64,000 bases of DNA, taken from contig NZ_FOBS01000017.1 of the NCBI RefSeq assembly GCF_900109885.1, positions 1 to 64,000 on the forward strand, written 5' to 3'. Below the pieces are notes generated by a model. The model made no database searches. It was not told where the DNA came from and was given only the letters and a program-made list of their open reading frames with translations. This document shows, piece by piece, positions 35,750 through 49,495 of this stretch. Position 1 is the first letter of the stretch; each line of letters opens with the position of its first letter. Made by a program: the position numbers and the translations under genes. This DNA is from Syntrophus gentianae (GTDB taxonomy: Bacteria > Desulfobacterota > Syntrophia > Syntrophales > Syntrophaceae).

Positions 35750-36070
35750 TTAATTTTCTGCAACCATTTCCTTTAATACTTCCGGGTGGGCCTCTGCAAT
35801 ACGCAGCAGCATTTTTGCCGATCCAGACGGTTCCCTTCTCCCCTGTTCCCATTGTTCCAGCGTACGCTTTGAAACGCCCAGCAAAGATGCAAATTGCGCC
35901 TGCGAAAGTCCGATTCGAGCTCTTGCTTTTGCCGCTTCCGTCTTGGGTTCCACGGAAATACGCCGTCCTCCGCCTGCCTTTATTTCTCTAATTCCGTCCG
36001 TAACTTCCTGCCAGATATCACGCTTCTTTTCGTAATCTTCCAGGGCCTTTCCTGATAACTTTTTACTCAT
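35750..36070 (-). CDS. higA: HigA-type antitoxin with XRE helix-turn-helix
   Basis: From ATG 36070, served by AAGGAGAG, the protein has 106 residues: a charged N-terminal helix and a helix-turn-helix (ARIGLSQAQFASLLGVSKRT followed by LEQWEQGRREPSG). It ends LKEMVAEN. Antitoxins of this kind neutralise the RelE/HigB toxin and repress their own operon. Its start overlaps the toxin stop by 8 bases. The toxin-first order is typical of higBA. Confidence 0.85.
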   Translation of the reverse strand: MSKKLSGKALEDYEKKRDIWQEVTDGIREIKAGGGRRISVEPKTEAAKARARIGLSQAQFASLLGVSKRTLEQWEQGRREPSGSAKMLLRIAEAHPEVLKEMVAEN

Positions 36071-36377
36071 TTTCAATACTCTCCTTCCATGACTTAACGA
36101 TGTGCGCCGGAATATTTTCCCGAACCGCCTTTGCGTGAATCGCCAATAGCCATATCTCCTCATATTGGCATTTTACATAATAGATAATTCGTACGCCTCC
36201 TCGCTTACCAATCCCTTGCCGTCTCCATCTGATTTTTCTCACGCCACCTGATCCTGGAATCACTGCGCCGGTTTCTGAGTGGTTGATGAGATATTGCTGC
36301 AGTTCGGCATATTCATCATCGTCGAGATAATATGGAAGCGCCTTCTCAAAGGATGTGGTTTCAATAAATGTAAACAT
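36063..36377 (-). CDS. higB: RelE/HigB-type toxin
   Basis: A 104-residue protein of the RelE superfamily with SGGVRKIRWRRQGIGKRGG, VRIIYYVK and IWLLAIHAK, the canonical strand pattern of these ribosome-dependent mRNA endonucleases. The basic residues near the centre match the RNA-binding surface. It is translated first and overlaps the antitoxin gene. The pair adjoins a HicB fragment, so this locus has hosted at least two toxin-antitoxin modules. Confidence 0.88.
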   Translation of the reverse strand: MFTFIETTSFEKALPYYLDDDEYAELQQYLINHSETGAVIPGSGGVRKIRWRRQGIGKRGGVRIIYYVKCQYEEIWLLAIHAKAVRENIPAHIVKSWKESIENE

Positions 36378-38123: not shown

Positions 38124-39371
38124 TTACTTGACCACTTCGTATTCCACTTTCGTTGGCTTTATACTCCAGACCAACCCGATCGATACAAAAGCGCAGACGG
38201 ACGCAATGATAAACGCGGGGAACATTAAATCAATATTTGTTGCGGCGAGGTTCTTGTAATAGCCTGCAATGTAAGACGCAACAACGGCGCCGACACCAAA
38301 GCCAACCAACACCATGCCATAGTTTGTTGCCATGTTTTTTTGACCGAACAAATCAGCGGTCAAAACGGGGAAGGTTCCTAAGAATCCGCCATAGAAGAAG
38401 CCGATGAAAGCGATTAATACATAAATGTAATACCCTGATGCCATATTCACAAAAAGAGATAATGTGCCTGTTCCAACGAGCAGGATCATAATGGCATTTT
38501 TTCTGCCGATTCTATCCGATACGAATCCCCAGAACAATCTTCCTGCGGAATTACAGATGGCGATTATCAAAACCCCAATGGTTGCCGTCGCCGCCATATT
38601 TTTTGCAACGGCAATGGGTTTTGCAAAGCCGATCATCATCAATCCACCCATGCTGGCAAGTGCGAAAGCCGTTGACAGTAAATAAAACTGCGGCGTTGTC
38701 AAAACTTCATTCGCCGAATAATCTTTAGGTGCAACCCCTTTGTTTGCGGCCGACATGACCCAGCCTTTCGGTGCATAGCCTTCCGGCGGATTTTTCAGAA
38801 AAATTCCGCAAATCGTACAAACGACGGCGAAAATAATACTCAGTGCCATGAAGGTTTTTATTTCGCCAACCTGTGGCCCACCGAAATATTTAATGAGGCC
38901 TTCAATAACCGGCGTGAAGAGAACACCCCCTAAGCCCAATGCTGAAACGAGCATGCCTGTTACAAGCCCCCGGTGGTCAGGATACCATCTTTGCGCGACA
39001 GCGATCGATGTCCCATATGTCATTCCGATGCCGATCCCGCCCATAACGCCATAGGTAAGCCACAAAAGCCAAGGTGCTTGCGCTGTTACGAGGGACGCGA
39101 AAAAGAATCCTGCCGCCACGATAAAACCGCCCGTGATCATGATGACTGGAATGGAAAATTTTGTTGTCATTCTACCGGCGATGATGCCTCCAAATCCAAG
39201 GCACGCAAGGAGCAGAGAAAAAGTGATTGCTGCCTCCGCATTGTTGCCGCTGAAAAGGCTCTTTGCAATCCCGGTTTGAAAGAGGCTCCAAAGATATGCC
39301 ACACCTGAGCATAATTGAATTAAGAATGCTGCAACGACGGGTATTGCACGATTATACGTATTCTGTTCCAT
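38124..39371 (-). CDS. MFS transporter of the oxalate/formate antiporter (OFA) type
   Basis: A 415-residue protein with 12 predicted membrane helices. Landmarks of the OFA subfamily are QLCSGVAYLWSLFQ in helix 1, GIGIGMTYGTSIAVAQRWYP in helices 4-5 and RLFWGFVSDRIGRKN between helices 8 and 9. OFA members exchange small mono- or dicarboxylates, so it probably imports or exports the organic acid handled by the mutase cluster; this is inference from position. GGAGGGGG precedes ATG 39371. A decayed carB fragment lies between it and glmL. Confidence 0.88.
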   Translation of the reverse strand: MEQNTYNRAIPVVAAFLIQLCSGVAYLWSLFQTGIAKSLFSGNNAEAAITFSLLLACLGFGGIIAGRMTTKFSIPVIMITGGFIVAAGFFFASLVTAQAPWLLWLTYGVMGGIGIGMTYGTSIAVAQRWYPDHRGLVTGMLVSALGLGGVLFTPVIEGLIKYFGGPQVGEIKTFMALSIIFAVVCTICGIFLKNPPEGYAPKGWVMSAANKGVAPKDYSANEVLTTPQFYLLSTAFALASMGGLMMIGFAKPIAVAKNMAATATIGVLIIAICNSAGRLFWGFVSDRIGRKNAIMILLVGTGTLSLFVNMASGYYIYVLIAFIGFFYGGFLGTFPVLTADLFGQKNMATNYGMVLVGFGVGAVVASYIAGYYKNLAATNIDLMFPAFIIASVCAFVSIGLVWSIKPTKVEYEVVK

Positions 39372-39434: not shown

Positions 39435-39581
39435 CGGGCCCATTGCCGTCGGACAGGCCCGTGAATTTGATGTTTCCGGTGCCCGGGCCTGCAAACCCTG
39501 CGTAAACTCGGTTACGAAATTGTCCTGGTCAATGCAAATCCGGCCACGATCATGACCGATGATCGCTCTAATTATCGAGAG
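39435..39581 (+). pseudogene. carB (carbamoyl-phosphate synthase large subunit) N-terminal fragment
   Basis: The plus strand encodes GPIAVGQAREFDVSGARACK in one frame and then, after a one-base shift, TLRKLGYEIVLVNANPATIM and TDD. Joined, they match the beginning of CarB, where GPIxIGQAxEFDYSGxQACK precedes a Rossmann-like LVNxNPATIMTD. No further CarB sequence follows, and the fragment's end overlaps the 3' end of the glmL gene on the other strand. It is a relic of gene loss or rearrangement. Confidence 0.75.
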
Positions 39582-41004
39582 AGGTGCGTTTCAGGTATTT
39601 TTTGGCAATCCTTAAGGCCTGGTCCGGAAAGTCCTCGGCCAAAAGCCCGATGCCATAGAGCATGTAATATCGGTCTATGTATGCTTTTGGATTTCTTGGC
39701 TTCAGGCTCCACGGCTTATCCAGGCTGAAAAGGGCAGACCGCAGAACCCTTTCCGGATTGAGACCGTACTTGAATATGCCGCCCGTCCCGATCAGGTTTT
39801 CCGTGGGAATCAGGTTCTTGCCGTGCTGCACATTGACTTCTCCTACCACGGTAAACTCCTGGCGCAGGGTGCCCGCATGGCGTTCGACCGCAATGGAAGC
39901 GGCGGATTCGGCAAGCACAATATCCGCATTCTGGCCGATGACCGTTTTGGGAACGTGCCCTACGTTGCGGGACAGATACTTGATGTGATGCACTGCGTTG
40001 TAAGGTCCATGGACATTAGCCGCTTCTTGCAGATCAGGGACGTAAGCCCGAAGCTTGGAGAGATACGTGTCGACCCCGACAAAATCAAAAATGGTCTGAG
40101 CGTTATACCGAATTCCCAGATCGCCCTCCACGGTCCTCTTTATCGTAAGCTCAGGAAGGCCCCGGAGAACCGTCTGGGGGGTCGCGAGAGATTGCTCGAC
40201 AACGGAATGGATGTTCGTGGTAGCCCCACCGACCTCGACGATTAGCAGGCTGCCTATTCCCGCTTCATCACTTGTCCCGTTGGCGAGCAGGGCCGCTGCC
40301 TGCAGCGTGGCCTTCGGAGTCGGCACGATTGGTCGGCCAATAAAATCCATCGCCTTCTCAAGGCCTTTTGCCTTTGTAATGTGGGCGATGAAAATCTCGC
40401 GAATGAGCTGTTGCGCCGGTTCTACCTCCACCGTTTCCAAATTCGGCAGGACGTTTTTTGCGGCGTATACTTTCTTGCCCCCTTGTTCCAGGATATCCCT
40501 GACCTTGTCGGAAACCACGCGATTGCCGGCAGTCAACACGGGACATTGAATATTTGCCCCCGCAAGCAGGCCGGCATTACGGGTGATGACGTTCTTGTCG
40601 CCCCCGTCCGTTCCTCCGCATAAGAGAACGATGTCGCACTTTGCGGATTCAATCTCGCGGACAATGCCTTCATCCATTTCGAAACCGTAAGAACAGACAA
40701 CCTTCGCGCCTGCGCCCAGGCAGGCTCGTCGCGCCGCCTCGAGAGTCAGTTCCGGGACGAGGCCTATGGCGGCCATTTTCAGACCGCCGGCAGCGCTGCT
40801 GCTCGCATATTTCCCTTTCACTGTGGAAAGGTCGATGCCGCACGCTTCGACAAGATGATAAAGGGCGTTATCCAGTCCGATGGTAATGTCCGTCTCGACC
40901 GTGGTGGGAGCCTGGGCCCTCCCTAAAATCATCTCTTTTTCGATGTCGACGGCGGTGACCTTCGTGTAGGTGCTCCCAAAATCCACCAATAAATAGATGC
41001 TCAT
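39568..41004 (-). CDS. glmL: GlmL/MutL-type accessory ATPase of the AdoCbl mutase
   Basis: From ATG 41004 the protein has 478 residues. It belongs to the ASKHA-fold family with an actin-like phosphate loop (LLVDFGSTYTKVTAVD), a second nucleotide motif around LLCGGTDGGDKN and VEVGGATTNIHS. MutL/GlmL proteins accompany glutamate mutase and are thought to reactivate the cobalamin enzyme or assist its assembly. AAGGA precedes ATG 41004; the extra codons to 41085 have no ribosome site. It follows glmS by about 170 bases on the same strand. Confidence 0.9.
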   Translation of the reverse strand: MSIYLLVDFGSTYTKVTAVDIEKEMILGRAQAPTTVETDITIGLDNALYHLVEACGIDLSTVKGKYASSSAAGGLKMAAIGLVPELTLEAARRACLGAGAKVVCSYGFEMDEGIVREIESAKCDIVLLCGGTDGGDKNVITRNAGLLAGANIQCPVLTAGNRVVSDKVRDILEQGGKKVYAAKNVLPNLETVEVEPAQQLIREIFIAHITKAKGLEKAMDFIGRPIVPTPKATLQAAALLANGTSDEAGIGSLLIVEVGGATTNIHSVVEQSLATPQTVLRGLPELTIKRTVEGDLGIRYNAQTIFDFVGVDTYLSKLRAYVPDLQEAANVHGPYNAVHHIKYLSRNVGHVPKTVIGQNADIVLAESAASIAVERHAGTLRQEFTVVGEVNVQHGKNLIPTENLIGTGGIFKYGLNPERVLRSALFSLDKPWSLKPRNPKAYIDRYYMLYGIGLLAEDFPDQALRIAKKYLKRTSLDN

Positions 41005-41176: not shown

Positions 41177-41611
41177 TCAATCGATGCCGAGATCCACCTT
41201 TAAAGTCTGAACAGCCTCCTTTGCCGTGCAGGTGTTGGGAAATGCGCGGTTGAAGCCAATCGCCGTGAAGCGCCGTTCAATTTCAGGCCAGTTCTTTTCA
41301 AGTTCCAGAGGGGCCGCCACGGTACCACCCACATAAAGGATGATATCCTTGAGTCCTGCCTCGATGCATTTGTCGCGGAGCCCTTCGCAGTCCAATAAAC
41401 CCATTCCATACATTGACGAAACGAGAATGGCGTCGGCATCGATTTCAAGCGCGGCATTGATGAACTCATGCTGTGGGACGACGGCTCCCAGAAAGGCCAC
41501 GGTAAAGCCCGCTTCTTCGAATGCCCTCCGGAGCACCCAACCGCCGATCATGTGTGCATCAGCTCCAATGGTGCCGATGACGACGCTCTTATTCACCTGT
41601 CTCTTTTCCAT
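41177..41611 (-). CDS. glmS: Cobalamin-binding small subunit (GlmS/MutS-type) of an AdoCbl mutase
   Basis: The 144-residue protein is a complete B12-binding domain with the base-off signature DxHxxG as GADAHMIGG (Asp18, His20, Gly23), then ILVSSMYG and ILYVGGTV. His20 should ligate cobalt from below. Its close resemblance to glutamate mutase S subunits contrasts with the altered E subunit. GGAGG lies before ATG 41611 and the gene is 19 bases after glmE, so E and S are co-expressed. Confidence 0.93.
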   Translation of the reverse strand: MEKRQVNKSVVIGTIGADAHMIGGWVLRRAFEEAGFTVAFLGAVVPQHEFINAALEIDADAILVSSMYGMGLLDCEGLRDKCIEAGLKDIILYVGGTVAAPLELEKNWPEIERRFTAIGFNRAFPNTCTAKEAVQTLKVDLGID

Positions 41612-41629: not shown

Positions 41630-43102
41630 TCATTTCTTCTTTAAGATAGAAGCAAACTGCAGATCTTGTACTGCCATTTCAAAGTTCAGCTGTCCTGCCT
41701 TCTTTTCCCGCTCTGACAGTTTTTGCCTGTGATACTCCTTCACCTCTTCCGGCAGAGGAATATTCCCTGAATCGTAATACCTCACCGCGCTTTCCGCATC
41801 GCGCATGACCGTGACATTCCCTTTATTGTATTTCCAAGGGGTCAGCATCGTATCGATCCATCCGGCATCGACACCCATGCACAGGCCGACCGCCATGTCG
41901 CCATCGCCGGCTTCCAGGCACTTTTCCATCAGTGCCCTCACTTCCGCTTCGATCATTTCCTCTTCCAGCCTCAGTTTCTCGCTGTCTGCAATCTTCTGGG
42001 TTCCCATCAGGGTGACGAGATGATGGGCCAGCCTGACCGACATGGCCATGCTCTCTTTTGTGGGGGTTGCAAAAGCTTCGTCCTGGCACTTTAAAATGAC
42101 GCCGGGGAAACCGCCCATCATGGTAATGACGGCATTCCACGCGATCATTGCGTTCGCTTCTTCCGCTCGGGGTGGCCAGGCGCCCAAAAAGGGGAAACCA
42201 CCCGTATAGAAATTGACGTCGGTATAGCCAAAGCGCTCACAGTATTCGTAACAGAGCTTTTCTGTTACCCTGATCATGGCTATATCCTGGATCATATTCA
42301 TGTTTTGCCCATGCTCGATAAATTGATGTTTCACCCCTTGCTCTGCAGCCAGGAGGGATTCAGAGACACACACGAATGACCGATATCCCGGGCTATCGTA
42401 GCCGGTAAGATTGGAGGGGTTCCACGGGCAGATGGGGACGCCGTTTTCCGTATAGATCCCCGCAAGACGTTGTTCGTATTGATTGATTCGGATCTCTTCA
42501 TCCAAAGGGATATTCTTGCAATGGGCGATGACTTCCTGAAGGGATCGTGAATAACAGGCATCAAACCCCGCTGCCAGTGCGATCTCCGAGGCCAAGCGCC
42601 CGTCCTCGTCGGTCGAATTGAAACTGAGAGGCACCGTCGTTGCCTGCATCACTCTTCTTGCCTCTTCGACGCCAAAATTGACGATGGGCCAGCCGTTGAG
42701 CATGGACATCCCTTCCTGCCTGCTTCGCTCGATGCCCTCCGCGGCTTTCTTGAAGTTGAGTTTCCGCGTATAAGAGTCCGAGTAGATCAGCCAGAAACCG
42801 TTGGGGGCCAGTTCCGAGTGCTCTTCCACATACGACAGACCATCGACCATATATTCGGTAAGAGCCCGTCCGAATTGAGGGATAAGGACGTGCGTTCCCT
42901 TTTCCTTGGCGTCTTTCAGCTTGAGTGCCGCTCTTTTCCCCTGGGCGCCGAGACTCACCTGGGATAATTCTTTTGCCGCGGCGATACACTCGTCCAGGTT
43001 TTCAACCTGTTTCCCCGTTTCCCACATGGGCAGCACTTCCTCTTTTCGTATCTTGAAAAATTCATCGTCGGACAGCCTCTTGTTCCGGATTGTATAATTC
43101 AT
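41630..43102 (-). CDS. glmE: GlmE-like catalytic subunit of an AdoCbl-dependent mutase; substrate probably not glutamate
   Basis: From ATG 43102 (after GGAGAGAGGAGG) the protein has 490 residues, the length of glutamate mutase E. Overall similarity is clear: YTRKLNF, LLAAEQGVK, MIQDIAMIR and ATPTKES. Compared by eye with Clostridium cochlearium GlmE, cofactor residues Lys326 and Glu330 are kept (Lys338, Glu342), but of the arginines binding the substrate carboxylates only Arg100 remains (Arg113). Arg66 and Arg149 become Gln76 and Asn162. Glu171, Tyr177 and Tyr181 become Tyr184, Glu190 and His194. So the radical chemistry should be intact while the substrate differs. The alignment has no gaps in these regions. 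Confidence 0.88.
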   Translation of the reverse strand: MNYTIRNKRLSDDEFFKIRKEEVLPMWETGKQVENLDECIAAAKELSQVSLGAQGKRAALKLKDAKEKGTHVLIPQFGRALTEYMVDGLSYVEEHSELAPNGFWLIYSDSYTRKLNFKKAAEGIERSRQEGMSMLNGWPIVNFGVEEARRVMQATTVPLSFNSTDEDGRLASEIALAAGFDACYSRSLQEVIAHCKNIPLDEEIRINQYEQRLAGIYTENGVPICPWNPSNLTGYDSPGYRSFVCVSESLLAAEQGVKHQFIEHGQNMNMIQDIAMIRVTEKLCYEYCERFGYTDVNFYTGGFPFLGAWPPRAEEANAMIAWNAVITMMGGFPGVILKCQDEAFATPTKESMAMSVRLAHHLVTLMGTQKIADSEKLRLEEEMIEAEVRALMEKCLEAGDGDMAVGLCMGVDAGWIDTMLTPWKYNKGNVTVMRDAESAVRYYDSGNIPLPEEVKEYHRQKLSEREKKAGQLNFEMAVQDLQFASILKKK

Positions 43103-43412: not shown

Positions 43413-43997
43413 TCAGTACTCAATGCCCTTTCGAGACGTGATCCCCTTCCGGTAGGGATGTTTCACTTCTTTCATCTCCGTCACGAGGTCGGCGATTTCC
43501 AGAATCCGCGGGTGAGCGTCCCTGCCGGTCAGGACAACATGAAGCTCAGTTGGACGCTGCTGTAATACGGCAACCACCTCGTCAACCGACAGCAAACCAT
43601 AGGCAATGGCGTTGTTCACCTCGTCGAGCACAACCATGCCGTAATTGCCGGAAAAAATCGCCTCTTTGCATACCCTCCAGGCGGCTTCTGCACATTGGAT
43701 GTCTTTCAAAGCCGGATTTTCAGGATCCACATGGACAAACCCCTCCCCCAGGGGCCGGATGATCATGTCAGGGGCCAGTCTTTTCACCGTATCCAACTCA
43801 CCGTACTTCCACGACCCCTTAAGAAACTGAAGGATGGCAACCTTCAATCCCTGACCTACAGCCCTCATTGCCATTCCCATGGCGCAAGTTGTCTTCCCCT
43901 TGCCGTAGCCGGTGAGAACAATGATGTATCCTCTGTCCAGCCCTCTCCTGGTGTCGTCCGAACCGCTCGGATCCGCACGCATTGTATCGATGCTCAT
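43413..43997 (-). CDS. cobO: Cob(I)alamin adenosyltransferase CobO/BtuR type
   Basis: The 194-residue protein has the P-loop GYGKGKTT at residues 30-37, followed by AMGMAMRAVGQGLKV and the family segments VVLDEVNNAIAYGLL and LTGRDAHPRILEIADLVTEM. CobO transfers the adenosyl group of ATP to cobalt, making adenosylcobalamin, the coenzyme the neighbouring mutase needs. It is transcribed toward the mutase genes, about 310 bases upstream, and is divergent from the PAS regulator. Confidence 0.95.
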   Translation of the reverse strand: MSIDTMRADPSGSDDTRRGLDRGYIIVLTGYGKGKTTCAMGMAMRAVGQGLKVAILQFLKGSWKYGELDTVKRLAPDMIIRPLGEGFVHVDPENPALKDIQCAEAAWRVCKEAIFSGNYGMVVLDEVNNAIAYGLLSVDEVVAVLQQRPTELHVVLTGRDAHPRILEIADLVTEMKEVKHPYRKGITSRKGIEY

Positions 43998-44223: not shown

Positions 44224-45702
44224 ATGAAAGACGAGGATAAGTCCAAAGCGCAGCTGGTTCATGAGCTGGAAGCGTTGAGAAGGAGAATTGCGAAATTCGA
44301 ATCCGTTGAAGGACATTGTAAACCGGCTGAGTCGCTTGCAGAGTGGGATACCCTGCGGAATTCGCTGCAAGTGGTTGAGGGGAAATACCGGGGTATCTTT
44401 GAAAACGCCATTGAGGGTATTTACAGGAGCACTTTTGATGGAAGGTTAATTGAAATCAACCCCTCCTTCGCCCGGCTCCTTGGGTATGATTCGCCGGAAG
44501 CGGTAAAAAACAGTGTGAAAGATATCGGGCAGAAATTTTATGTCGACCCGGAAAAACGCAAGGAATGGATAAACCAACTGGCGGAAAGGGATTATGGCAG
44601 CTTTGAGGTTCAACTTCGCAGGAAAGACGGCAGTACAAGATGGATATCCAACAAGGCCCGTGTTGTCCGCAATGAAAAGGGAGAAACGTTATACTTTGAT
44701 GGCTTTGTTGAGGACATTACTGAAAAAAGGCGCGCAGAGGAGGAACTGAAAAAAGCAGAGGAAAAATACCGTAGTATTTTTGAGAACGCCCTCGAGGGAA
44801 TTTACCGTACCACGCCTGATGGACACTTTCTTGATGCCAATCCCGCCTTGGCCCGTATTTTCGGCTATGACTCACCGCAGGAGATGATGACTGCGGTGAC
44901 CAATCTGGGAAAGCAGCTTCATGTCAGTCCGGAAAGCCGCGAGCGGTTTATTTCGATTATGGATCAAAAGGACTACGACGATTTTGAAGCGCAGATGCGC
45001 AAAAAGGATGGCAGCACCTGCTGGGTATGTTTCAGGGGCCGTTCCGTACGCGACGCGGAGGGGAAAACGCTTTATTATGAGGGGCTGGCCGAGGATATTA
45101 CCGAACGCAGGCGGACCGAGGAAGTCCTGAGGCAATACCGTGACCATCTGGAGGAATTGGTCAAAGAGCGTACGTTCCAGCTTGAAGAAAGAAACCGGCA
45201 ATTGAATTCGGAAATCGCTGAGCGGAAAAAGGCAGAGGAAGCTTTAAGAAGAAGTGAGAGAGAATTGCGGATCAAGGCGCGCAATCTCATGGAAGTCAAT
45301 ACGACCCTGAAGGTCCTGCTGAATACCATGGAAAGGGACCAGCAGGAATTGCAGGAGAGATTTCTGGGTAACATCAAGTCTCAGGTCCTGCCTTATCTGG
45401 AAAAGTTGAAAAAGAGACCACTGCAGGAGGTCGAGAAGGGTTTTCTCCAAATGGCGGAGACGAATCTTAATGAAATTGCCTCACCCCTTGTGCAGAAATT
45501 GAAGTCCAGCTATTTGAATCTAACGAAGACAGAGATCCAGATTGCCGTCCTGGTGAAGGAAGGAAAAACATCGAAGGAAATCGCGCAACTCTTAAATGCA
45601 AAACAACGAGTGATTGAATTTCACAGACAAAACATCCGGAAGAAACTGGGTATGAATGATAAAAGGGGATCGCTCGCCCTCTCGCTCCGTTCCTTTTCAT
45701 AA
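44224..45702 (+). CDS. PAS-PAS-coiled coil-LuxR-type transcriptional regulator
   Basis: A 492-residue cytoplasmic protein with two PAS domains of similar sequence: the first about residues 55-165 (KYRGIFENAIEGIYRST) and the second about 180-300 (KYRSIFENALEGIYRTT), each ended by a PAC motif (DITEKRRAEE, DITERRRTEE). A long coiled coil follows, then a LuxR-type helix-turn-helix at about residues 430-485 (KTSKEIAQLLNAKQRVIEFH). No histidine kinase or receiver domain is present, so the PAS domains probably sense a ligand directly. It is divergent from cobO and is a natural candidate to regulate the mutase cluster. Confidence 0.88.
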   Translation: MKDEDKSKAQLVHELEALRRRIAKFESVEGHCKPAESLAEWDTLRNSLQVVEGKYRGIFENAIEGIYRSTFDGRLIEINPSFARLLGYDSPEAVKNSVKDIGQKFYVDPEKRKEWINQLAERDYGSFEVQLRRKDGSTRWISNKARVVRNEKGETLYFDGFVEDITEKRRAEEELKKAEEKYRSIFENALEGIYRTTPDGHFLDANPALARIFGYDSPQEMMTAVTNLGKQLHVSPESRERFISIMDQKDYDDFEAQMRKKDGSTCWVCFRGRSVRDAEGKTLYYEGLAEDITERRRTEEVLRQYRDHLEELVKERTFQLEERNRQLNSEIAERKKAEEALRRSERELRIKARNLMEVNTTLKVLLNTMERDQQELQERFLGNIKSQVLPYLEKLKKRPLQEVEKGFLQMAETNLNEIASPLVQKLKSSYLNLTKTEIQIAVLVKEGKTSKEIAQLLNAKQRVIEFHRQNIRKKLGMNDKRGSLALSLRSFS

Positions 45703-46585: not shown

Positions 46586-49495
46586 TCATTTCTGTATGCT
46601 TCCGAGCAGCTCGTCGGCGATGCTCGCGTTTTCGAGCCTCATGATGCTTTCTTCCGCTCGGCCGAAACCCAACAGGTTGATGCTTCCATACCAGACAATT
46701 TTCTGATCGAAGATTGCAAATTTTTGGTGGATGTTGGATCTGAATATCAGCCGGACACCTGCGTCAGCAAGTAATGCCAGGGTTTCCTTCAAGGCAGCCT
46801 GGTCCTTTTCCTTGAAGTCGGATGTCGGCCTTGTGACGACAACCGTCTTGACTTGACGGTCCAGGGCGGCACTCATGAAAGGCAGCATCTGAGTCACCCG
46901 TCTCCTTGTGACGAAGGGGCTGACGATGAGAATTTCCTGCGCTGCGTTCAGCAGATCGTTTCTATATACCGGCAGGAAGGTTGCGCTGTCGAAGATGATA
47001 TCCGCCCCTTCATCGGGAACGCTTTGCGCCCTTGCTTTGTATCCAATCGAGGCGTATCCGGCCAGCCGCTTGTGATACATCCTTTCCAGCACCGGAACAT
47101 GAATATCGATATAATCGTAGATTATTACCTCCCGCTTGTTCTCGCAGAGGCGGTGGAGCCTTCCAGCATATTGCTGAAGCGTTCCCTTCCAGGAGATGGG
47201 CATGGCGAGAAACAGCGTATCCAGACGAGGCTCGTCGAACCCCTCGCCAATGTATCTCCCGGTTGCAATCAGCGTCAATGGCTTGCCGGCAGGCGTTTCG
47301 GAAATGCGAGCCAAGGCCTCCCGCGTCTCCTTTGCCCCCTTCCCGCCGGTCAGGGAAATGACATCGGGAATGTTCTCCCGCAGCTTCGCGGCCAGCAGAG
47401 TCACATGGGCCGTTCTTTCGGTGAGGACCAGGGCGTTGCCGCCTTTTTGAAAGCAACGCAGGACATCATCGGCAATCCGCTGATTCCTTGGCTCATTACC
47501 GGCGATGGCAGCATAGAGTTGTTGGATCGAAGGTTCTTTCCCTTCCGTATCCAGCGGTGCCTTGAAATCTGTCAACCGGGGGATGACATAATGATCGAAG
47601 GGCCTCTTTTCCGCCTGCTTCCTGGCATCCACCCGGTAACGGATCGGGCCGCAATGCATGAAAATAATGGGGTGGTGGCCATCTTGCCGTGTGGGGGTGG
47701 CCGTCAAACCGTAAACATATTTAGCATGAACACCTTTGAGGATCTGTTCAAAGCTGAATGCCGGCACATGATGGCATTCATCGACGATGACCATGCCATA
47801 ATGCCTGATTTCCTCCCTGATTTCGTCACTTCTGTTTAAGGACTGCATGATCGCGACGTCGATGAGGCCGCTCGGAGTGGACTTTCCCGCGCCGATCTGA
47901 CCAATCAGGCTTTGCTTTCTTTTACGTCCTCTCCCCTTCTCCAAGGCAGGCAGCGCTTCATCGATATGCAAAAACTCGTTTAGTTTTGCTGTCCATTGGG
48001 AGAGCAATTGTCTCCGGTGTGTCAGGATCAGTGTGCTCGTCTTCCTCTCGGCGATCAGTTTTGCGGCGATGACCGTTTTACCGAAAGCCGTGGTTGCCGA
48101 AAGAACGCCGGTATCATGTTGCAGCATCTCTTCCGCAGCGGGAAACTGTTCATCTCTCAGGTTTCCTTTGAAAATAACGTGGATGGGCTTCCCCGGACAG
48201 GTATGATCCAGCCGTTCAACCTTGACGCCTGATTGATTGAGCAGGGCGGCAACGTCGGTTTCACATCCTCTGGGGAGACAAATGTATTCAGGTGTTTCTT
48301 CCGAGCAGGAGATGATGCGCGGTTTGTCATAAGTCAGCAGCCGCAATGCCTGGGCCTTGTAAAATTCCGGATTTCTGAAGGCTGCCAGTCTCTTGATCGC
48401 GTTCAATCCCCGCTGAGAAATCCCTACTTTTTCGATGTAAAGCATGTTTGCCTTGACCAACCGGACAGCTTGGGGAAAGTCATTCCCGGATACATCTCTT
48501 CGCACGGATTCCCAAGGTCTTACGGTTTCTTCATCGTCTTTACGAAGCGATCCCAACTCGTTTCCAGGGCTCAACTGTGGTATCCATCTGGTGATCTCCT
48601 CCTCGGACAATCGGCCGATGCCGGCCAGGAACTCCCACTGATTTTCATAAGGGCGGAAGTTCTCGTCGACGAAAACACTGTTACCTTTTTCCCGGGCCTT
48701 CTTCTGGAGGGGAAGGGCGATCAGGTTTCCAAAACCGCCCTTCGGGAGGGTATCCTGATTGGGAAAGAAGCGGTCGTAGGATTTGAAGGTCAGTTCATGC
48801 CTCCGGTTCATGGCACCGGTCAGCAGGGCGGAACCAAACTTCCGCGCCAGGCTTGCAGGAATGGAATGCTCAAAGAAAAACCAGGCATGGGCTCCGTTTC
48901 CGGAACGGGATCGTTCCAGGGCCATGGGGATTTCAAAAGTGGCGCAGACCGCCCGAAGCGTCGCGCAGTCATCTTGCCAGCCTTCATCATCAAAATCAAT
49001 AGCCAGAAGATGGCATGTCTCGTCCAAACAGAGTGGATAGAGGCCGGCAACGATCTGGCCCCGCAGATGCGATTCAATGACCTTTTCGTCCAAGGCTTCG
49101 TAGGATGAATGGCTGCAGTCGGCGCATTTCCCTGCCGGTTTCAGGCAGAGGCCGGATTTCCATTCATTGAGGCAAACCGGTGCATAACCCGACCTGTCCG
49201 TCTTGCTCTGCCATCTTCTGGCATAAACATCCTTTCGCCCTTGAAAGAGGGACATGAAAAGCCGGATTTTTTCGTCCGAATCGGGTTGCCTTGGCGCTCC
49301 CGATCTCGCATGACCCCCTGTTGATTGCTGGGCCGTTAAAACCGAGGGCGAAGAATTTTCAGAATCCTGATGCGTATCCGGTTGAGGGGGCCTTGCAATC
49401 CCAAGCTGCGCCTTCAGGAATTCGTTTTCTTTCCGCAAGAAACGGTTTTCAGCAAGCAGTGCCCGGTATTTTTCGAACAACTCATCAACATTCAC
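46586..49495 (-). CDS. Primase-SF2 helicase-phospholipase D fusion (TOTE conflict-system type)
   Basis: A 969-residue multidomain protein. Residues 1-35 are a coiled coil. About 80-330 form an archaeo-eukaryotic primase-like domain with a Cys4 motif (Cys108, 117, 124, 127), a DFDD acidic motif at 167-170 and SGNGAHAWF at 198-206. About 450-830 form a superfamily 2 helicase (TTAFGKTVIAAKLIAE, DECHH, GLTATPTRQD, QQYAGRLHR). The C-terminus is a PLD-type nuclease with one HKD-like motif (HQKFAIFDQKIVWYGSINL). The domain series matches the helicases of TOTE-type conflict systems, thought to act against mobile DNA. The Fic gene ends 33 bases upstream. Confidence 0.85.
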   Translation of the reverse strand: MNVDELFEKYRALLAENRFLRKENEFLKAQLGIARPPQPDTHQDSENSSPSVLTAQQSTGGHARSGAPRQPDSDEKIRLFMSLFQGRKDVYARRWQSKTDRSGYAPVCLNEWKSGLCLKPAGKCADCSHSSYEALDEKVIESHLRGQIVAGLYPLCLDETCHLLAIDFDDEGWQDDCATLRAVCATFEIPMALERSRSGNGAHAWFFFEHSIPASLARKFGSALLTGAMNRRHELTFKSYDRFFPNQDTLPKGGFGNLIALPLQKKAREKGNSVFVDENFRPYENQWEFLAGIGRLSEEEITRWIPQLSPGNELGSLRKDDEETVRPWESVRRDVSGNDFPQAVRLVKANMLYIEKVGISQRGLNAIKRLAAFRNPEFYKAQALRLLTYDKPRIISCSEETPEYICLPRGCETDVAALLNQSGVKVERLDHTCPGKPIHVIFKGNLRDEQFPAAEEMLQHDTGVLSATTAFGKTVIAAKLIAERKTSTLILTHRRQLLSQWTAKLNEFLHIDEALPALEKGRGRKRKQSLIGQIGAGKSTPSGLIDVAIMQSLNRSDEIREEIRHYGMVIVDECHHVPAFSFEQILKGVHAKYVYGLTATPTRQDGHHPIIFMHCGPIRYRVDARKQAEKRPFDHYVIPRLTDFKAPLDTEGKEPSIQQLYAAIAGNEPRNQRIADDVLRCFQKGGNALVLTERTAHVTLLAAKLRENIPDVISLTGGKGAKETREALARISETPAGKPLTLIATGRYIGEGFDEPRLDTLFLAMPISWKGTLQQYAGRLHRLCENKREVIIYDYIDIHVPVLERMYHKRLAGYASIGYKARAQSVPDEGADIIFDSATFLPVYRNDLLNAAQEILIVSPFVTRRRVTQMLPFMSAALDRQVKTVVVTRPTSDFKEKDQAALKETLALLADAGVRLIFRSNIHQKFAIFDQKIVWYGSINLLGFGRAEESIMRLENASIADELLGSIQK

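Follow-up and report, generated by a model that had tools for sequence, protein, structure and literature searches.

From our sequence, structural and genomic analyses, we conclude that the glutamate mutase-like genes of Syntrophus gentianae probably encode a two-subunit adenosylcobalamin (AdoCbl)-dependent carbon-skeleton mutase that has the glutamate mutase fold but whose specificity has shifted to some free carboxylic acid other than glutamate. The preliminary description had proposed a working AdoCbl mutase for another substrate, and that part of it very probably stands. The fold, the B12-binding subunit, the cofactor residues, the chaperone, purifying selection, a clade-specific pocket and changed gene linkages support it. 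The large subunit (GlmE-like, E) is placed in a coherent subfamily of AdoCbl mutases that appears to be undescribed, since our search of the open literature found no account of such GlmE relatives. Newly seen here is that this clade has lost its linkage with methylaspartase and is frequently linked with MmgE/PrpD instead. To our knowledge, AdoCbl carbon-skeleton mutases form a small group in which only glutamate and 2-methyleneglutarate serve as free-acid substrates. Such a consistent clade, with its altered pocket and its repeatedly occurring partner, points to a radical reaction and a catabolic pathway not yet described, for which cultured hosts are available (Sporomusa silvacetica and Geobacter argillaceus). 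In several clades of the family, an automatic annotation as 'methylaspartate mutase' can be mistaken.

The operon and its large subunit

The window, which is the whole 64,000-nucleotide stretch of S. gentianae DNA that was analysed, contains the following gene cluster.

38124..39371, minus strand: MFS organic-acid transporter of the oxalate/formate and L-lactate type (curated models)
39568..41004, minus strand: GlmL accessory/reactivation protein (NF040745, 526.6 bits, cut-off 475)
41177..41611, minus strand: GlmS-like B12-binding small subunit (S), DxHxxG kept (TIGR01501, 148.9 bits, cut-off 135.8)
41630..43102, minus strand: GlmE-like large subunit, TIM barrel, 490 aa (homology and pocket alignment)
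43413..43997, minus strand: CobA/BtuR ATP:corrinoid adenosyltransferase (profile matches)

The E and S genes are 18 bases apart, and a GAGGAGG ribosome site precedes the ATG of the large-subunit ORF. The adenosyltransferase gene, 310 bases upstream of E and hence at most possibly co-transcribed with it, likely provides the AdoCbl supply for the mutase. The GlmL ORF runs from 41085 (505 aa), with the NF040745 match starting at residue 31, and its start is probably the ATG at 41004. The MFS protein scores best with the curated model of an L-lactate transporter (318.4 bits; cut-off 320), in agreement with the adjoining acid transporter noted previously. The DxHxxG motif of the small subunit, also noted before, reads GADAHMIG, and DxHxxG occurs in the S subunits of the other scanned loci as well. 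Divergent from the operon lies a PAS-PAS-LuxR regulator (44224-45702, plus strand), and a related PAS protein is found near the clade operon in locus L035. By eye only, a RelE/HigB-like toxin with an HTH antitoxin-like partner (35750-36377, minus strand) and a primase-helicase-like protein resembling TOTE conflict systems (46586-49495, minus strand) were noted elsewhere in the window.

Residues 5-481 of the large subunit match Clostridium cochlearium GlmE (1cb7_B; E 2.3e-80) at 36% identity, with a 5-residue insertion before D96. The protein passes PF06368 with 342.6 bits (curated cut-off 26.6) and fails the NCBIfam equivalog TIGR01503 with 328.4 bits (cut-off 390.1); S and GlmL lie above their curated equivalog cut-offs. 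An AlphaFold2 model built from 19 relatives (mean pLDDT 77, pTM 0.83) superposed on 1cb7_B with a TM of 0.88-0.90, although several active-site loops had a pLDDT under 50. The system shares with C. cochlearium GlmES (EC 5.4.99.1; 1cb7, 1i9c, 6h9e) the fold, the two-subunit plan, DxHxxG, K326/E330, R100 and GlmL, but differs in that R66, R149, E171, Y177, Y181 and K322 are replaced and a methylaspartase partner is lacking. On the curated cut-off, the substrate residues, the clade and the pathway partner, the window's E subunit is placed outside the glutamate mutases, although it would work in the manner of one.

The substrate pocket

Alignment with the solved GlmE confirmed all eight residue equivalences of the preliminary description. 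Six of these concern the substrate pocket, namely R66 to Q76, R100 to R113, R149 to N162, E171 to Y184, Y177 to E190 and Y181 to H194. The other two are the cofactor residues K326 and E330, retained as K338 and E342 and invariant across the clade. K322 has also changed, to G334, and of the glutamate-binding set R66/R100/R149/E171/Y177/Y181/K322 only R100 is therefore retained. Shifted or misaligned arginines, which would have undone this picture, are ruled out because retained neighbours (P65, G68, P145, D154 and R156) anchor the columns on either side of each site.

The changes are characteristic of the whole clade. Q76, R79, D165, E166 and H194 are invariant in its 19 sequences and E190 is found in 18 of them; the GlmE positions R100, N123, K326 and E330 are retained throughout. 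Position 149 is Asn in 14 sequences and Val in five, position 171 is variable, and Gly, Thr or Ala occupies position 322. R66, R149, E171, Y177, Y181 and K322 are kept in every canonical sequence in which these columns are covered. At 57 columns, canonical GlmE and the clade each have a fixed residue, but a different one. One invariant change not noted before, V69 to R79, introduces an arginine three residues after the lost R66. In the AlphaFold2 model R79 lies in the loop after the Q76-bearing strand (72-77), ahead of a helix starting at 83. Since this loop is on the side of the barrel that contains the active site, R79 could possibly replace the R66 guanidinium.

In glutamate mutase, R66, R149 and E171 hold the glycyl half of the substrate, and R100 together with Y177 holds the acrylate half (PMC10947579). 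Loss of the glycyl-holding set makes an alpha-amino acid unlikely as the migrating group. The retained R100 (R113) would suit an acrylate-type half, but the exchange of Y177 for Glu alters that half too, which makes the role of R113 uncertain; E190 beside R113 might even cancel its role in binding a carboxylate. The single-carboxylate substrate suggested in the preliminary description is consequently just one of several options, given these changes and the new R79.

Distribution and gene neighbourhoods

Relatives comprised 15 loci from a genome collection and further ones from whole-genome searches; searches of a viral collection gave no relatives, and those of a plasmid collection gave only relatives under 60% identity. 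In a quick tree of 84 family members, inferred with the six variable active-site columns omitted and without bootstrap, the 19 sequences with Q at position 66 and H at position 181 formed one clade (SH-aLRT 100; stem length 1.5 changes per site), and the window's large subunit was separate from the canonical GlmE clade. The changed residues thus define a clade, as anticipated. Its hosts belong to four phyla (Thermodesulfobacteriota, Bacillota [Sporomusa], Actinomycetota and Pseudomonadota), and this patchy spread suggests horizontal transfer. Both Sporomusa genomes carrying a clade member also contain an ordinary GlmE, at loci with methylaspartase (L150 and L151). The clade is under purifying selection (dN 0.03-0.13; dS 0.23 upward or saturated), and together with the retained cofactor residues this led us to reject a pseudogene or dead copy.

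We compared the neighbourhoods of 17 clade loci, 12 canonical loci, 11 loci of a second set (LLYY-type, see below) and nine other divergent loci, with gene calls in the relatives made by a simple custom script rather than a published gene finder. Methylaspartate ammonia-lyase lies beside GlmE at 12 of the 12 canonical loci and at 0 of the 17 clade loci, and in the window's genome, which is 99.99% complete, it gave just a 20-bit match below the cut-off. MmgE/PrpD is adjacent at 12/17 clade, 4/9 other divergent, 0/12 canonical and 0/11 LLYY-set loci (clade versus canonical: Fisher p 1.2e-4, ignoring relatedness). It is missing beside the window operon, at both Sporomusa loci and at L043 and L044; elsewhere in the window's genome no PrpD was found, and the genomes of Sporomusa, L043 and L044 gave nothing closer elsewhere than distant homologues of doubtful meaning. 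S and GlmL stay with the clade E subunit, and a CobA-type adenosyltransferase is adjacent at 6/17 clade loci.

Carboxylate carriers are linked with the clade at many loci (MFS, TRAP DctP, TctC and SSS, the latter two named by eye). Several loci adjoin genes of aromatic-acid metabolism and others do not. Besides the TRAP, TctC, SSS and MFS carriers, the contexts include UbiD, CoA ligases, biotin carboxylase, fumarate-reductase-like flavoprotein, transhydroxylase and hydroxybenzoyl-CoA-reductase-like genes. They do not converge, which rules out reading a single substrate from the neighbourhoods. Among them, a pyrogallol-phloroglucinol transhydroxylase small subunit (L044, 792-1604) and 4-hydroxybenzoyl-CoA-reductase-like genes (L039, 261-4217) adjoin clade members, and UPF0261 proteins (L037, 3597-4853; L040, 1201-2436) lie close to the operon, together with biotin carboxylase/carboxyltransferase genes, in two MAGs, one actinobacterial and one burkholderial.

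The LLYY-type relatives of the Met_asp_mut_E family, found in Alphaproteobacteria, Burkholderiales and some Thermodesulfobacteriota, form a second GlmE clade (loci L137-L139 and L152-L158). Like the window's clade, they have lost R149 and E171 (both Leu) and are linked to an alpha-proton-abstracting enzyme family (the enolase superfamily). Unlike it, they retain R66, Y177 and Y181, form a separate clade and are partnered by MR_MLE rather than MmgE/PrpD; an MR_MLE gene is nearby at 7/11 loci of the set (two by Pfam, the rest by similarity to those). They are probably not glutamate mutases either. Since the methylaspartase, MR_MLE and MmgE/PrpD families all abstract a proton alpha to a carboxylate, each mutase clade seems to have a partner enzyme that can act on the newly branched carbon. 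A further genome (G421; L130-L134) encodes six divergent GlmE paralogues with differing pocket signatures, several of which have Arg for the cofactor Lys326, with MmgE/PrpD at three loci and family III CoA transferases at two.

Proposed reaction and candidate substrates

We propose that AdoCbl homolysis would give the 5'-deoxyadenosyl radical, which would abstract hydrogen from the substrate, and that a group X would then migrate between adjacent carbons (X-CH2-CH2-COO- <=> CH3-CH(X)-COO-), X being neither an amino acid nor a glycyl unit. The carboxylate of the acrylate-like half may be bound by R113, and Q76, N162 (or Val), E190, H194 and possibly R79 could form the binding site of X. The MmgE/PrpD partner present in most relatives would subsequently act on the branch-point carbon by alpha-proton/enolate chemistry, replacing methylaspartase in an epimerisation, dehydration or decarboxylation. 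Because MmgE/PrpD is missing at some loci, this second step cannot be universal, and in the window and Sporomusa the pathway must differ or be completed otherwise.

The partner retains D94, the catalytic H104 and the enolate K268, and carries D153 and V203 at the positions of two cis-aconitate decarboxylase residues that we take to be H159 and K207; the full set of MmgE/PrpD enzymes of known function, which comprises the catalytic His, the enolate Lys and the dicarboxylate-holding His and Lys, is thus not present. The equivalents of H159 and K207 help to hold the carboxylates in MmgE/PrpD relatives, and characterised members of the family deprotonate the carbon alpha to a carboxylate via an enolate, two of them being epimerases (PMC12290011). 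All act on free dicarboxylates with a 1,4-dicarboxylate backbone, and one is an (S)-(R)-methylsuccinate isomerase (PMC12290011). We tentatively suggest a new class of AdoCbl mutase acting on a kind of substrate without precedent for the glutamate mutase fold, a monocarboxylate, perhaps aryl- or hydroxy-substituted, and forming a mutase-epimerase or mutase-dehydratase pair with an MmgE/PrpD whose specificity would be new, which spread horizontally among anaerobes and soil and marine bacteria; on balance we would sooner doubt than accept this extended form.

A free-acid mutase for a substrate other than glutamate, our preferred explanation, could also take the form of a plain dicarboxylate mutase without an amino group, in which R79 and R113 bind the two carboxylates and MmgE/PrpD acts on the branched dicarboxylate (glutarate <=> methylsuccinate, 2-hydroxyglutarate <=> 3-methylmalate, or the 2-methyleneglutarate type). 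The substrates of the characterised MmgE/PrpD enzymes, the invariance of R79 and the TRAP DctP-type proteins at several loci agree with this possible but doubtful form, but two of the three claw arginines are gone and the PrpD partner likewise lacks two carboxylate-holding residues of its relatives. Another specific form, which we consider rather unlikely, is a mutase that takes part in anaerobic aromatic-acid breakdown and acts on a monocarboxylate with an aromatic or some other bulky substituent (3-substituted <=> 2-substituted propionate). The replacement of R66 and R149 by neutral residues, the lactate-type monocarboxylate carrier in the window and the transhydroxylase (L044), 4-hydroxybenzoyl-CoA-reductase-like (L039), UbiD (L043, L046 and L047) and CoA ligase neighbours would fit it; however, contexts that vary by locus may be incidental, and the glutamate mutase pocket is small.

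That the enzyme is still a glutamate mutase, or a close amino-dicarboxylate mutase in which residues such as R79, D165 and E166 hold the alpha-carboxylate and amine, appears improbable. The new invariant Arg, the new invariant acids in the pocket loops and the equivalog scores of S and GlmL could be read in its favour, but the strict conservation of the glutamate-binding residues in canonical sequences, the absence of methylaspartase from the 17 loci and, above cut-off, from the window's genome, and the coexistence with ordinary GlmE in Sporomusa argue against it. Least probable of all, to the point of being hardly credible, is a catalytically dead or regulatory GlmE relative: the loss of substrate-binding residues speaks for it and nothing else does, whereas K338/E342 and DxHxxG are invariant, GlmL and often CobA are kept and purifying selection is strong.

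Two known systems offer parallels to the preferred free-acid mutase. Methylmalonyl-CoA mutase with methylmalonyl-CoA epimerase would be a functional analogy, as a mutase paired with an alpha-proton enzyme, but it acts on CoA esters and belongs to a different mutase family with just distant fold similarity. The 2-methyleneglutarate mutase of nicotinate fermentation, a single-polypeptide enzyme, is likewise a free-acid AdoCbl mutase whose substrate has no amino group. Elsewhere, locus L136 (7626-12759) combines GlmES-like genes with genes of the PEP-mutase/isocitrate-lyase and 3-hydroxyisobutyrate-dehydrogenase types, a set reminiscent of the end of nicotinate fermentation (the 2-methyleneglutarate route).
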